This document shows, in pieces, positions 17,421-60,482 of a stretch of DNA of 64,000 nt. A model generated the notes under the pieces. The model was not told the DNA's origin. It saw only the letters and a list, made by a program, of their open reading frames with translations, and did no database searches. The position numbers were made by a program, and so were the translations under genes. The stretch is from Clostridia bacterium. GTDB taxonomy: Bacteria; Bacillota; Clostridia; Christensenellales; Aristaeellaceae. Where the stretch lies: positions 1 through 64,000 of the forward strand of contig JAFYVB010000009.1 of NCBI GenBank assembly GCA_017549335.1. The letters are read 5' to 3'. The number at the start of each line of letters is the position of its first letter. The first letter of the stretch is position 1.

Positions 17421-17663
17421 ATGACAGCTAAAGATGCTGTAGCCGCACGTTTTGTTGAGATTATGAAAGAGCGAAATATCCGCACAAACGAACTTGCGAA
17501 CCTCGCAGGTGTTACGCCGTCGTCCGTATATAGTATGCTCGATAGTAGCCGCCGCGAAGTATCTATCAATTTGATTAAGAAGCTATGCGATGGTCTGGAA
17601 ATTACCCTTGGAACATTCTTCAACGCCAAGGTTTTTGATGATTTGGAACAGGAAATCAAATAA
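17421..17663 (+). CDS. XRE-family transcriptional regulator
   Basis: An 80-residue Cro/C1-type DNA-binding protein. The helix-turn-helix is RTNELANLAGVTPSSVYSMLDSS at about residues 21-43, then a third helix NLIKKLCDGLEITLGTFF and a short acidic tail. The start follows GAGGTGATGAT. It is divergent from the small protein at 17092-17292 and probably controls both through the TACGCA-N2-TGCGTA palindromes. Confidence 0.85.
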   Translation: MTAKDAVAARFVEIMKERNIRTNELANLAGVTPSSVYSMLDSSRREVSINLIKKLCDGLEITLGTFFNAKVFDDLEQEIK

Positions 17664-17685: not shown

Positions 17686-17831
17686 CGGCAGGCCGATGGC
17701 GCAGCCATCGCGTCCGTGAAACGGACAAAAAAAGAGAGGAAAGACCGTTGGGCAAGCTTGCTTGCACATACGGGCTTAACTCTCTTTTTGTATAGCCTGC
17801 CGTAACATTTACACACACATAAACGCAGGCT
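17686..17831 (-). repeat. Structured repeat element, copy A
   Basis: Read on the minus strand, the core (17802-17686) is bounded by inverted ends CGGCAGGC and GCCTGCCG. Inside lie a long imperfect hairpin with tip GCAAGC-AA-GCTTGC (17752-17765) ending in a U-run, a hairpin GTCCGT-TTC-ACGGAC, and a hairpin GATGGC-TGC-GCCATC. A CCTGCG segment about 20 bases upstream is also shared with copies B and C at 49.1-49.5 kb. It occupies the convergent gap between the XRE gene and the ABC operon. Confidence 0.75.
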
Positions 17832-17843
17832 TTCGGGTGGGTC

Positions 17844-17881
17844 TTAGGGAGGGGCTTTGGCCTCCAAAGCCGCCTCCCTAA
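17844..17881 (-). terminator. Hairpin after the ABC exporter operon
   Basis: TTAGGGAGG (17844-17852) and GGCTTTGG pair with CCAAAGCC and CCTCCCTAA (17873-17881), giving a near-perfect 17-bp stem with a 3-base loop. It starts 8 bases past the ABC stop codon but lacks a U-run. Confidence 0.55.
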
Positions 17882-17888
17882 CGTCCTC

Positions 17889-19868
17889 TTATTCCAATTC
17901 AAATGCGCCGGTGTACAGCTGATAATACTGGCCCTTCTGGGCGATCAGCTGCTCATGGTTGCCGCGCTCGATGATGCGTCCGTGGTCAAGCACCATGATC
18001 ACGTCGGAATTCTGTACGGTAGACAGACGGTGCGCGATAACGAACACCGTGCGTCCGTGCATCAGGCTGTCCATGCCGCGCTGCACCAGGGCTTCGGTGC
18101 GGGTATCGATGGAGGAGGTGGCTTCGTCCAGAATCATTACCGGCGGATCTGCCACCGCAGCGCGGGCAATGGAGATCAGCTGACGCTGACCCTGAGAAAG
18201 CCCCGAACCGTCGCCCGTGAGCAACGTGTTGTAGCCCTCCGGCAGGCGGGTAATGAAATCGTGTGCGTTAGCCAGCTTGGCGGCAGCGATGCACTCCTCA
18301 TCCGTGGCGTCCAGCTTGCCATAGCGGATATTCTCCATCACCGTGCCGGTAAACAGGTTCACATCCTGCAGCACCACGCCCAAAGACCTGCGCAAGTCAG
18401 CCTTCCTGATCTTGTTGATATTGATGCCGTCATAGCGGATCTTGCCGTCCGCAATATCGTAGAAGCGGTTGATCAGGTTGGTGATGGTGGTTTTGCCTGC
18501 GCCCGTCGCGCCCACAAACGCCACCTTCTGACCGGGCTTGGCGTACAGAGAAATGTCATGCAGAACGGGCTTCCCCTCTTCATAGGCAAAGTCCACTTCT
18601 TCCAGCACCACGTCGCCTTCCAGCTTCTTATAGGTCAGCGTGCCGTCGCCGTGCAGATGCTTCCATGCCCAAATGCCCGTCTTTTCGGCGGTTTCGATCA
18701 GGTTTTCGCCTTCTTCACGAACATTGACCAGCGTTACATAGCCCTCATCGGTCTCCGGCTTCTCATCCAAAAGGCCGAAGATGCGCTCGGCACCGGCCAA
18801 AGCCATGGCCACAAAGTTGATCTGCTGCGCCACCTGATTGATGGGCTGCATGAAATTGCGGGACAGCGTGAGGAAAGAGGCGATAGCGCCCAGCGTCAGC
18901 ACGTTCAATCCGCCTGTCAGGCTGAGATTGGTGACGCCGCCGATGGCCATGGCGCCGCCTACGATAGCCAGCAGCACATATTCGATATGCCCCAGATTGT
19001 TGTTCACAGGGCCCAGAATATTGGCAAATTTATTGGCACTGGTGGCGTTATGGCACAGCTCATCGTTTCGGCGGTCAAATTCTTCCTTGGCTTCGTCTTC
19101 GTGATTAAATACCTTGACCACCTTTTGACCGTTGATCATCTCTTCAATGTAACCGTTCAAGCCGGCGAGAGACTTCTGCTGATTGACGAAGAAGCCCGCG
19201 CTCTTGCCGCCAATCTTCGCCGTGACCTTCATCATCGCAAAGGCGCACAGCAGCACCAGCAGCGTCAGCCACACAGAGCAAACCAGCATGGAAATGAAAA
19301 CAACGACGATCGATATGGCAGAGGACACCACCTGCGGCAGCGTCTGGCTCACCATCTGGCGCAGCGTATCGGTATCATTGGTGTAATAGCTCATCACCGC
19401 GCCGTGAGTGTTGGTATCAAAATAGCGGATGGGCAGCGACTGCATGTGCTCAAACATCTGATTTCGGATGCCTTTGAGCACACTGTGGGATACCACCGCC
19501 ATGATTCGCATCTGGAAATAGGAGGCGCAAATCGCCAGCACGTAAAGTCCGGCCATCTGCAGAATGGTCACAGCCAGCCCGCCGTAGCTCACGCTCTCCC
19601 CCGCCGCTGCCTGTCGCAGCATGGGCGTAATGTGATTATCGATGATACGTCCGAGGAAGGTGGCAGAGCTGACGCTGGCGACAGCGGAGATAATGATGCA
19701 CCCCATCACCAGCAGCAGCCTGGGCCAGTAAGGTTTCAGATAGCCCAGGAGGCGAATGACCGTTTTTTTATTGATGGGCTTACGCGGCCCAAACGCGCGG
19801 GGACCGCGACCGGGGCCGCCCATGGGCGGGCGCACAGGAGCGTCGTTTTTACGGTTCACGTTACTCAT
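17889..19868 (-). CDS. ABC exporter half-transporter (permease-ATPase), second subunit
   Basis: A 659-residue fused permease-ATPase. A proline/glycine-rich N-terminal extension (GGPGRGPRAFGP) precedes six membrane helices (about residues 60-340) and an ABC ATPase (about 420-655) with Walker A GATGAGKTT, signature LSQGQRQL, Walker B VMILDEATSS and the switch histidine in FVIAHRLS. A linker insertion of about 40 residues sits just before the ATPase. ATG 19868 is chosen over longer forms because GGGAGG lies upstream and ATGAGTAA overlaps the stop of the first subunit. It should form a heterodimeric exporter with that subunit; the substrate (drug, lipid or peptide) is unknown. Confidence 0.92.
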   Translation of the reverse strand: MSNVNRKNDAPVRPPMGGPGRGPRAFGPRKPINKKTVIRLLGYLKPYWPRLLLVMGCIIISAVASVSSATFLGRIIDNHITPMLRQAAAGESVSYGGLAVTILQMAGLYVLAICASYFQMRIMAVVSHSVLKGIRNQMFEHMQSLPIRYFDTNTHGAVMSYYTNDTDTLRQMVSQTLPQVVSSAISIVVVFISMLVCSVWLTLLVLLCAFAMMKVTAKIGGKSAGFFVNQQKSLAGLNGYIEEMINGQKVVKVFNHEDEAKEEFDRRNDELCHNATSANKFANILGPVNNNLGHIEYVLLAIVGGAMAIGGVTNLSLTGGLNVLTLGAIASFLTLSRNFMQPINQVAQQINFVAMALAGAERIFGLLDEKPETDEGYVTLVNVREEGENLIETAEKTGIWAWKHLHGDGTLTYKKLEGDVVLEEVDFAYEEGKPVLHDISLYAKPGQKVAFVGATGAGKTTITNLINRFYDIADGKIRYDGININKIRKADLRRSLGVVLQDVNLFTGTVMENIRYGKLDATDEECIAAAKLANAHDFITRLPEGYNTLLTGDGSGLSQGQRQLISIARAAVADPPVMILDEATSSIDTRTEALVQRGMDSLMHGRTVFVIAHRLSTVQNSDVIMVLDHGRIIERGNHEQLIAQKGQYYQLYTGAFELE

Positions 19869-48437: not shown

Positions 48438-49055
48438 ATGATATTCATCGGTATCTGCGGTGCCAGCGGCTCGGGCAAAACCACGCTGGCCAACGAACTG
48501 TGTCACGCGATCGGCGCATCCAGCACGCTTATCAGTCAGGATGCCTATTATCTTGACCATCCCGATCTTTCCTTCGAAGAACGCTGCAAGCTCAATTACG
48601 ATGAACCTTGCATTTTTGACCATGACCAGCTGTACCAGGACGTTTGCGACCTGATGGAGGGCAAGTCCGTGCCCCGCAAGGCCTACGATTACGGCGATCA
48701 CCGCCGTGCTCCCTCCACGGAGATGATGCATCCCGCGGACGTGATCATCGTGGAAGGTATCCATTCCTTCTTTGACGAGCGCCTTTGCGACAAAATGTTC
48801 CTGAAGCTGTACGTCAATGTGGATCCCGATATCTGTCTGCTTCGCCGCATTAACCGCGACATCATCGAGCGTGGCCGCCATATTGAAAACATCACCGACC
48901 AGTATCTGGCCACCGTTCGTCCCATGTACGAAAAGTATATCCGCAATTACATCAACAACGCCGACGTCATCGTTGCCCGCGGCGGCAAGAACGCCAAGAT
49001 CGTGGAGATCCTTGCCGGCTATATGCACGATGCTCTGGCAGGAGATGCGGAATAA
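48438..49055 (+). CDS. udk: Uridine/cytidine kinase
   Basis: A 205-residue P-loop kinase that phosphorylates uridine and cytidine in pyrimidine salvage. Walker A is GASGSGKTT at residues 8-16. The substrate segment DAYYLDHPDLSFEERCKLNYDEPCIFDHD and the lid region RDIIERGRHIENITDQYLATVRPMYEKYI match the family. ATG 48438 with GGAGG at about 48425-48429 gives the normal start; an upstream in-frame start lacks a site. Phosphoribulokinase is the related alternative, but length and motifs favour uridine kinase. Confidence 0.92.
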   Translation: MIFIGICGASGSGKTTLANELCHAIGASSTLISQDAYYLDHPDLSFEERCKLNYDEPCIFDHDQLYQDVCDLMEGKSVPRKAYDYGDHRRAPSTEMMHPADVIIVEGIHSFFDERLCDKMFLKLYVNVDPDICLLRRINRDIIERGRHIENITDQYLATVRPMYEKYIRNYINNADVIVARGGKNAKIVEILAGYMHDALAGDAE

Positions 49056-49104
49056 GAAAAACGGAGGGAGGACGTTTCTTTCTTGAGTCAAGAAAGAAAC
49101 AAAG

Positions 49105-49265
49105 AACCTGCGTTATATCGTTCATTGGCTGCATTATTGGCGCGGCAGACTATACGAAAAAGAAGACGGAAACCCGAATATGCAAGCAAGCTTGCCTCTC
49201 GGTTTTCCGTCTCTTTTTCTTGTCCTTTTCACGGACACGATCACGCAAGCGTGACCGGTCTGCCG
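49105..49265 (+). repeat. Structured repeat element, copy B
   Basis: The core (49143-49265) is bounded by CGGCAGAC and GTCTGCCG, preceded by the shared ACCTGCGTT and GGCTGC segments. Hairpin tip GCAAGC-AA-GCTTGC (49182-49195) sits on a long stem AGACGGAAA.../...TTTCCGTCT and is followed by CTTTTTCTT. Further hairpins are GTCC.../...GGAC with a TTTTCAC loop and TCACGC-AA-GCGTGA. It shares sequence and architecture with copy A on the opposite strand at 17.7 kb. Confidence 0.75.
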
Positions 49266-49319
49266 CTTGGGATTCCCGCTTGCTGCATCGAAGCACACGC
49301 CGCACAGCCCGCAACGGAG

Positions 49320-49478
49320 CGGCAGTTTGGACGGCGCAGCCGGACAGGTTTGCGAAGCAAACGAAAAAGGACGGGGAAGATCAGCGGATCGAGTTTACTC
49401 GAATCCCTGAGATTCTTCGTCCTTCTTCATATACTGCCGCGCCGATAACGCAGCCGGTTTCCGATCCAAACGCAGGTT
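49320..49478 (-). repeat. Structured repeat element, copy C (inverted next to B)
   Basis: Read on the minus strand the core (49439-49320) is bounded by CGGCAGT and ACTGCCG, preceded by ACCTGCG and GGCTGCGTTATCGGCG as in copy B. The hairpin tip is TCGAGT-AA-ACTCGA (49402-49389), then GTTTGC-TTC-GCAAAC and CGGC-TGC-GCCG. Stem sequences differ from A and B while pairing and loops are kept. Together, B and C fill the 441-base gap 49056-49496, in which I see no gene. Confidence 0.72.
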
Positions 49479-49496
49479 TTCTGCTTCTCTTTTAAC

Positions 49497-49901
49497 TCAA
49501 AAGAGAAGCGTCTCCCCCACTTTCGCAGCAATCTTCACGTCCGCAGGAGAAAGCTCAAGCTCCATCAGCTCCCGCGCGTTCACCCATCGGATCTCATCAT
49601 GCACGCGAAGTTCAAACTCGCCCGCCAGCCACTCAAAAACATACGCGCACAAGAGAATGCTCTCCCCCTGCGCGCCGTACACATACCGGCTGTCGGTCAC
49701 GTGCTGAAGCGTCCTGCCCGTAATGCCGAATTCTTCGGACATCTCGCGCTCAAGGCATTTTTCATCGGTTTCCCCCGCTTCCACCTTGCCGCCGGGGAAC
49801 TCCCACATGCCTTCATTTTTCTGACCTTTTGCACGGCGTGCGGCGAGCACCCTGCCGCCTCGCAGCACAACAGCCGCCGTCACGCGGCGTTCGCCAGTCA
49901 T
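49497..49901 (-). CDS. Nudix hydrolase, MutT-like (8-oxo-dGTP diphosphatase)
   Basis: A 134-residue single-domain Nudix protein. The Nudix box GGKVEAGETDEKCLEREMSEEFG (about residues 37-59) is complete. The preceding EGMWEFPGGK is typical of MutT-like enzymes that hydrolyse 8-oxo-dGTP. It could act with the MutY at 4.4 kb in oxidised-guanine repair, but a nucleotide-sugar or other substrate cannot be excluded. Its ATG overlaps the stop of the upstream lipid kinase gene by ATGA. Confidence 0.87.
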   Translation of the reverse strand: MTGERRVTAAVVLRGGRVLAARRAKGQKNEGMWEFPGGKVEAGETDEKCLEREMSEEFGITGRTLQHVTDSRYVYGAQGESILLCAYVFEWLAGEFELRVHDEIRWVNARELMELELSPADVKIAAKVGETLLF

Positions 49902-58832: not shown

Positions 58833-58888
58833 TTGACAACCTTTCAAAAGGTCAATATAATGAACTCAAATGCGATGAACAGGTTCAC
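58833..58888 (+). promoter_or_regulatory. Promoter and operator of the GH39-like gene
   Basis: TTGACA (58833-58838), 17 bases, TATAAT (58856-58861): a perfect consensus. Thirteen bases downstream lies ATGAAC-AG-GTTCAC (58875-58888), followed by TCATCCT. The same motif and geometry recur before the sugar-binding protein at 60.4 kb, so one regulator probably controls both. Confidence 0.75.
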
Positions 58889-58936
58889 ACTCATCCTGAA
58901 ATACCCTTGCATCAAAGCATGAAAGGAGTTTTCATT

Positions 58937-60376: not shown

Positions 60377-60440
60377 TTGACAAAAATATAGAAGATGAAT
60401 ATAATAATCCCAACAGGATGAACAGGTTCATGTTCATCCT
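60377..60440 (+). promoter_or_regulatory. Promoter and operator of the sugar ABC operon
   Basis: TTGACA (60377-60382), 17 bases, TATAAT (60400-60405). Twelve bases downstream is ATGAAC-AG-GTTCAT (60418-60431), a perfect dyad, and a second GTTCATCCT (60432-60440) that forms a 9-8-9 inverted repeat with AGGATGAAC (60415-60423). The three half-sites could give cooperative repression. Confidence 0.78.
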
Positions 60441-60482
60441 AAAATGATTATTCCTCAAAGTAGGAAAGGAAGGAAACCCAAT

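Follow-up and report, generated by a model that had tools for sequence, protein, structure and literature searches.

A mosaic palindromic repeat family in the 3' flanks of clostridial genes, probably serving as bidirectional transcription terminators

The DNA analysed here is a 64,000-nt stretch (the window; G000:C6:1-64000) of a Clostridia genome, G000, that is assembled into 41 contigs totalling 2.09 Mb and is 86% complete. Three copies of a structured core lie in the window, at 17686-17802 on the minus strand (core A), 49143-49265 on the plus strand (core B) and 49320-49439 on the minus strand (core C). The architecture that a preliminary description had proposed for these copies is indeed shared, as all three are matched by one covariance model (R1). 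Cores A and B, which belong to the training set of the model, are found with 122.9 bits (E 7e-31) and 106.8 bits (E 1.6e-26), and core C, which lies outside the training set, with 64.8 bits (E 3.2e-15).

Core A is part of a unit that adjoins the TAA stop codon (17889-17891) of an ABC-transporter gene. On the minus strand, the unit opens with a purine-rich spacer carrying GACG (17881-17888), followed by a terminal hairpin, hp1 (17845-17880; TAGGGAGG..CCTCCCTA with a one-base bulge), whose stem has paired variants among copies when judged by eye. Next comes a linker with CGAAAGCCTGCG (17803-17844), delimited from the flank alignment and earlier reported as an upstream CCTGCG segment, and then the core itself. 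The unit had been described as spanning 17686-17831; the true extent is larger, about 17686-17888, beginning at the ABC-transporter stop codon and including linker and terminal hairpin. Most aligned copies that have a left end start with a similar pattern of stop codon, purines and ACG. In the window, cores measure 117-123 nt and the GACG-bordered terminal hairpins 27-36 nt.

The core is a four-way junction of about 120 nt, made of an outer helix, a long arm and two hairpins. In core A, an 8-bp outer helix (17795-17802 paired with 17686-17693) encloses the arm (17729-17789) and, from sequence and fold, hairpin 3 (17712-17726, GTCCGT-TTC-ACGGAC) and hairpin 4 (17694-17710, CGATGGC-TGC-GCCATCG). 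A long hairpin followed by a U-run had been noted before and is present, with an A-tract also preceding it, so that the arm (A-tract, stem with GCAAGC tip, T-tract) has the shape of a terminator on both strands. The R1 model matches the arm on the plus strand as well, and the arm scores as a terminator, at -26.2 kcal/mol.

The other two cores, first taken for two further copies, are real; they belong to a single element (about 49056-49515), in which each occupies one of two facing halves, located between a uridine kinase gene and a Nudix-family gene. The left half starts (49056-49142, plus strand) with a spacer behind the uridine kinase stop codon (49053-49055), hp1 (49074-49100) and a linker, and continues into core B. 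A centre (49266-49319) separates this core from core C, beyond which the right half ends (49440-49515, minus strand) with a linker, hp1 (49483-49509) and GACG. Both cores were identified by R1 match and fold. There are two core types, distinguished by hairpin 3: core B is A-type, and core C, with GTTTGC-TTC-GCAAAC as its hairpin 3, is B-type. The called stop codon of the Nudix-family gene (TGA, 49497-49499) falls inside hp1, and the element may therefore have altered the end of this protein at this place (49497-49509). Elsewhere in the window, a 54-nt repeat (76%) occurs at 58833-58927 and 60377-60470, in the start regions of two genes, with each copy preceded by a perfect TTGACA-17-TATAAT.

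The claim that core A folds is well founded, with a predicted energy of -61 kcal/mol and a z value of -8.26 without flanks (-5.25 with them); the z values of cores B and C are -8.35 and -7.45. For all three cores, the antisense strand folds equally well or better. The paired differences reported among the copies hold for the arm tip, which is GCAAGC/GCTTGC in A and B and TCGAGT/ACTCGA in C, and for the outer helix, which changes from GGC/GCC in A to GAC/GTC in B. For the short hairpins the earlier account was partly right. Hairpin 3 is as described in A and C, whereas only five pairs form in B, and hairpin 4, which was said always to pair, is interrupted by a mismatch in B and by two unpaired segments in C.

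Covariance-model searches of the source genome and related genomes recovered many additional copies. At least 39 cores are present in G000, consisting of 38 model matches at E<=4e-10 plus core C of the window, and a blastn search with copy A finds 23 places at E<1e-16 in this genome, copy A itself counted. R1 derives from 36 cores, of which 21 belong to G000 and 15 to a second species of the genus (G008), and a later model, R2, derives from 106 copies. Both models include the A- and T-tracts and are thus biased toward finding tract-bearing copies, and at loose E-values the palindromic arm also contributes antisense echoes to the match counts.

Covariation in the fold is as strong as had been proposed. 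In a MAFFT alignment of 36 A-type cores that was not fitted to the model, 26 of the 44 base pairs show two-sided change and 90.8% of cells are paired, compared with 36-46% when partners are slid. The set of 106 copies comes from G000, G008, G002, G003, G004, G006, G007 and G055, the last being from another genus. In this alignment, which was fitted to the model and therefore has raised pairing, two-sided change is seen in 43 of 44 pairs, and 94.6% of cells are paired (38-46% with slid partners). The outer helix reaches 96.9%, hairpin 3 99.2% and hairpin 4 98.1% in these copies, most of which are from G000 and G008. Under a null model of our own, in which columns evolve independently along the tree of the copies, each with its own number of changes, 64% of cells would be paired (maximum 70%), 34 pairs would be two-sided (maximum 39) and the score would be 0.17 (maximum 0.22). 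The observed score is 0.68, and none of 200 null draws reaches the observed pairing, pair count or score; 22 of the 44 pairs individually exceed all of 400 null draws. Chance is excluded as the cause of the fold and its covariation by the slid-partner controls, the tree null and the fold z values. By eye, the stems in G055 and in G003-G007 are almost wholly unlike those of G000 in their letters, and the same helices form. The element family is a clear example of a shape that is conserved while its sequence turns over.

Flank alignments reveal a common order for each half-element, which runs from stop codon through purine tract with GACG(A/T)T or similar, hp1, linker (CCTGCG or similar) and core to a variable centre. 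The ends of the element are inverted (GGACG..hairpin / hairpin..CGTCC), and by eye few bases outside the hairpin are conserved. Among the 55 cores placed in stretches of G000 and G008, 44 form 22 facing pairs, each pair sharing one intergenic space. The parts of the element also appear to be reassorted. When modules are clustered in G000, both hairpin-4 types are found with arm type 1 and again with arm type 3, a violation of the four-gamete rule which suggests that copies exchange modules; this comparison applies to G000, as G008 has a single hairpin-4 cluster.

Other palindromic repeats are nested in hp1 or in the centre at several loci. One of these, about 105 nt long (CAATTCGGCATTGTCG ... 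TGTGCCTCATTGGAACT ... GTTCCCC), lies within the 3' part of hp1 or replaces it in several copies (L010, L034, L044; G008 C47 at 65.4-65.9 kb and C54 at 26.2-26.6 kb). Another (GGCTTCCCCTTGAGGGGAAGCTGTC ... GATGAGGTGTAGC) is found in or beside some elements, as at L034 and at G000 C41 30330-30640.

The placement of the element relative to genes was evaluated in 11 stretches of G000 and G008 by using our own simple gene caller, which missed a short ORF at 17421-17663. From 63 matches, 55 cores were placed, and the remaining eight were left out as antisense echoes of the palindromic arm. The 51 cores with genes on both sides comprise 36 in convergent, 15 in codirectional and none in divergent spaces. 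The 260 background intergenic spaces of at least 100 bp in the same stretches include 35 convergent, 145 codirectional and 80 divergent ones (Fisher p 5e-16 for the convergent excess and 8e-8 for the divergent depletion). In 47 of 53 cases, the gene preceding the core has the sense orientation.

Further analysis was restricted to the 45 gene ends that have a sense core within 260 nt and whose neighbour is either convergent and at least 25 nt away or codirectional and at least 120 nt away. At 34 of these, the core starts 79-104 nt past the stop codon, and at four more the distance is 57-58 nt; one of these four is the end of the Nudix-family gene of the window, whose called stop lies inside hp1. 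This tight spacing is a trait of G000 and G008 rather than of the family, because it is loose (104-252 nt) in G203, a genome of genus g46, where the same fold stands behind similar hairpins. In this genome (15 of 19 matches used, the rest being antisense echoes of the arm), a sense gene in front is missing for 5 of the 11 cores that have a called neighbour, and an ordinary terminator precedes one element.

Several features of the arm resemble those of intrinsic terminators. At its foot, the 36 A-type cores share four A columns and four T columns without variation. Of 38 copies drawn from G002, G003, G004, G006, G007, G055 and G203, 37 have A4 within the 5' half of the arm and 35 have T4 within the 3' half, with no copy showing the reverse of either, and AGCNNGCT is present at the arm tip in 37. 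For the L125 copy (minus strand), the arm centre was set on a wrong AGC match, and this copy stands among the T4 misses and among the tip hits. A simple test for a stem followed by a T-run predicts the arm itself to be a terminator at 41 of the 45 sense gene ends. Other terminators are scarce at these ends: one starts within 60 nt of the stop codon at only 6 of the 45, whereas 116 of the 207 ends that lack an element have one (Fisher p 1.2e-7). Three of these six are the arm or the hp1/linker stretch, and the other three are ordinary terminators, with the core displaced to 134, 141 and 244 nt.

Orthologous gene ends exist with and without the core. There are 11 element ends in G008 with a match in G000, and nine are usable, since two alignments end too early. 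The core is present in both genomes at four of the nine and absent from G000 at five. Among these five G000 ends, an ordinary terminator is clear at one and weak, overlapping the stop codon, at another; a third has another repeat, and two have hp1 and linker only. The last two look like core loss, not like an ordinary terminator in the slot. For example, the gene at G000 C41:16452 (minus strand) has an ordinary terminator behind it and its G008 ortholog an element, and another gene has a bidirectional terminator in G000 and two cores in G008. No clean empty site was seen among the ortholog ends. Where the core is missing, the end has different neighbours, a different terminator, a different repeat or only the hairpin.

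The uridine kinase gene (udk) of the window provides a broader comparison. G000 has the full element behind this gene, and G008 a version that lacks the left core. The nearest named uridine kinase record is from a sheep-rectum Clostridia MAG (90% identity), whose letters match the G008 locus, and the next are Clostridia MAGs, many of them from herbivore guts. Among 37 public udk ends with a readable stop, seven (L154, L155, L158, L159, L162, L164, L166) have an ordinary terminator within 60 nt past the stop, two of which, L154 and L158, carry the same letters past the stop as G009 and G010. The end that matches G008 (L148) has its terminator score inside hp1/linker, and L153 (68% identity) carries an element whose core lies 135 nt past the stop, and no terminator is scored there. 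The remaining 28 lack both element and scored terminator within 60 nt, and in many of them the next gene is close.

Some copies mark changes in gene order between the two species. A segment of about 15 kb is inverted between G000 C41 (30620-44435) and G008 C46 (33889-49350), with elements at both ends. When G000 C41 was compared with sampled G008 stretches, an element was found in at least one genome at 7 of 17 alignment-block ends and in both at 5, whereas intergenic spaces carrying the element number 7 of 100 and 20 of 155. Some of the 17 block ends are broken alignments, and thus the association between element and rearrangement is suggestive.

So far the element has been seen in some uncultured gut Clostridia, all of one clostridial family. 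R1 gives 80 matches at E<=0.01 in G000 and 148 in G008 (antisense echoes included), and none in G001 and G010. In surveys of the family and the order with R2, in which 18 candidates were scored per genome so that copy counts are lower bounds, 21 of 200 genomes of the family are positive (seven of this genus, ten of genus g46, three of g10 and one of g65). When 200 genomes from across the order were scored, a set that includes family members, only G000 and G055 had matches. Four genomes, G080, G106 and G127 of g10 and G074 of g65, have a single match each (E 7e-7 to 3e-14, with 18 candidates scored per genome), which might represent transfer, a relic or contamination.

Known entities that could account for the element were sought in databases. 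A known RNA family was rejected on the basis of the Rfam 15 search, which gave no covariance-model match in the 64-kb window and, for six loci at E<=1, four matches that are all far below the gathering score. Domains of Y1 transposases (PF01797), IS110 transposases (PF01548) and reverse transcriptases (PF00078) have no match in G000 or G008, although at 86% and 82% completeness these genomes could be missing a transposase gene. PF01797 is above its cut-off in 4 of 18 genomes (G007, G009, G093, G203). Movement by RAYT, IS110 or reverse transcriptase was rejected on the grounds that the domains are absent from G000 and G008 and that matches elsewhere do not track the element. An origin in phages or plasmids was likewise rejected, as one full element had no match by DNA similarity among phage and plasmid records, a comparison that likewise brought up no known MITE, and exact core patterns were found neither in viral contigs nor in genome contigs, a collection from which near relatives may be absent. 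No paper on this element family was found in a literature search that covered few subscription journals.

Given these observations, the element probably belongs to a mosaic palindromic repeat family, REP- or MITE-like, that settles in gene 3' flanks and acts there as a bidirectional transcription terminator. A full element consists of two facing half-elements, each past a stop codon and each comprising terminal hairpin, linker and four-way-junction core, and the A-tract, stem and T-tract of the arm would serve as an intrinsic terminator in either direction. Transcription that runs out of a gene would end at the arm, about 125-180 nt past the stop codon in most copies, and any transcription that reads through would meet the second core, so that convergent genes would be insulated from each other. 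Some copies stand behind a resident terminator, and most would be the sole terminator. In this account, the element would arrive by movement, and before the resident terminator is lost.

Intergenic repeats are mostly regarded as parasites or as stabilisers of mRNA. A purely selfish REP- or MITE-like repeat, whose terminator shape is incidental or limits harm, would land in 3' flanks because insertion elsewhere is harmful. High copy number in some species of the genus and absence from others fit such a repeat, as do the shuffled modules, the other repeats nested inside, the loose placement in G203 and the loss of the core at some orthologous ends. However, a selfish repeat accounts poorly for the scarcity of other terminators at element ends (6/45 vs 116/207), for an arm polarity that is kept despite turnover of the stem letters, and for the tight spacing to the stop codon in G000 and G008, and we consider this explanation unlikely. 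A still smaller chance is given to a DNA-level role, in which the junction extrudes, or forms on single-stranded DNA, for recombination or chromosome structure and termination is secondary. Near-perfect pairing on both strands and the cores at block ends, including both ends of the 15-kb inversion, would be in keeping with this role, but few block ends were sampled, some of them being broken alignments, and recombination between copies is expected of any repeat.

The preliminary description had proposed selection for a folded RNA or DNA, and covariation does demonstrate that the fold is kept. A discrete folded RNA, in contrast, is unsupported. If the whole junction folded as an RNA with its own function, such as a 3'-end stabiliser, an sRNA or an RNA-protein particle, covariation throughout the fold (outer helix included) and the near-invariant arm tip would be explained, and G-U cells do slightly exceed A-C cells (56 to 30 and 91 to 59). 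This asymmetry was discounted as proof of a sense-strand RNA, as the signal is weak and the alignments are fitted to the model. Moreover, G-U cells are nearly absent from hairpins 3 and 4, the antisense strand of every window copy gives a fold that is at least as good, the arm has the shape of a bidirectional terminator, and the sole promoter-like match inside a window core (49407, plus strand, 9/12) is weak. The T-tract lies within the fold, and the full junction would thus form only upon read-through, which also argues against an RNA with its own function, an explanation that we find improbable.

Termination alone does not account for covariation of the outer helix and of hairpins 3 and 4, all of which are located past the sense T-tract. 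A speculative addition to the terminator interpretation, which we regard as doubtful, is that the whole junction is selected because a trans-acting protein recognises the fold, in DNA or RNA form and with its near-invariant AGC-NN-GCT apex; such a protein would copy the elements or make them uniform, and would replace ordinary terminators with them. If this were true, the family would represent a terminator-colonising mobile system that lacks a known transposase, with letters replaced between genera and the shape kept. At some orthologous ends, a repeat shaped like a bidirectional terminator occupies the place of the ordinary terminator found in relatives, which makes it testable whether repeats were domesticated as terminators or terminators amplified as repeats.

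The conclusion of the preliminary description that no named family has this architecture is correct with respect to Rfam, but the kind of element is one already known. This is a real family, unmatched in the libraries searched, and a variant within the mosaic palindromic repeats found at gene 3' ends. EFARs have a modular make-up and, on integration, take the place of stem-loop targets. Efa elements of Enterococcus faecalis are reported to lie preferentially near gene 3' ends, with Efa-1 predicted to form a pair of stem-loops on both strands (PMC3733652, PMC2267715, PMC1590033). Like EFAR and Efa-1, the elements described here are miniature repeats of Firmicutes near gene 3' ends; in description, the difference is that Efa-1 has two adjacent stem-loops and our element an outer helix around an arm and two hairpins. 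A study of the human microbiome lists 250 palindromic candidate structured RNAs, of which 230 have predicted intrinsic terminators; the four examples displayed are mostly or wholly from Bacteroidetes, and the comparison is one of description, not of sequence (PMC8040213).

REP and BIME sequences offer both parallels and differences (PMC3733652, a paper whose main text contains neither 'Clostridi' nor 'Firmicutes'). REPs are hairpins of 20-40 bp with a GTAG or CGTC tag that are linked to Y1 transposases (RAYT), and roles in termination and mRNA stability have been hypothesised for REPs and BIMEs. Both kinds are high-copy palindromic repeats, often arranged head-to-head and mainly located behind genes, between convergent or codirectional ones, as is the present element with its 22 facing pairs (44/55 cores) and its 36 convergent and 0 divergent placements out of 51. 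The terminal hairpin of the present element is bordered by GACG/CGTC, which may be a further likeness. In contrast, a four-way junction of about 120 nt with terminal hairpin and linker replaces the 20-40 bp hairpin, a size that does not fit a short REP, and the Y1 transposase has no match in G000 or G008. Among low-GC Firmicutes, the stem-loops behind genes have four As before and four Ts after them, with the reverse very rare, according to Petrillo et al. (PMC1590033). These terminators resemble the arm in being hairpins close past the stop codon with As before and Ts after, and they differ in being single hairpins. In the present element, whose nearest known kinds are REP/BIME, EFAR and the bidirectional terminators of Firmicutes, the terminator shape is one arm inside a larger, repeated and covarying four-way-junction fold.
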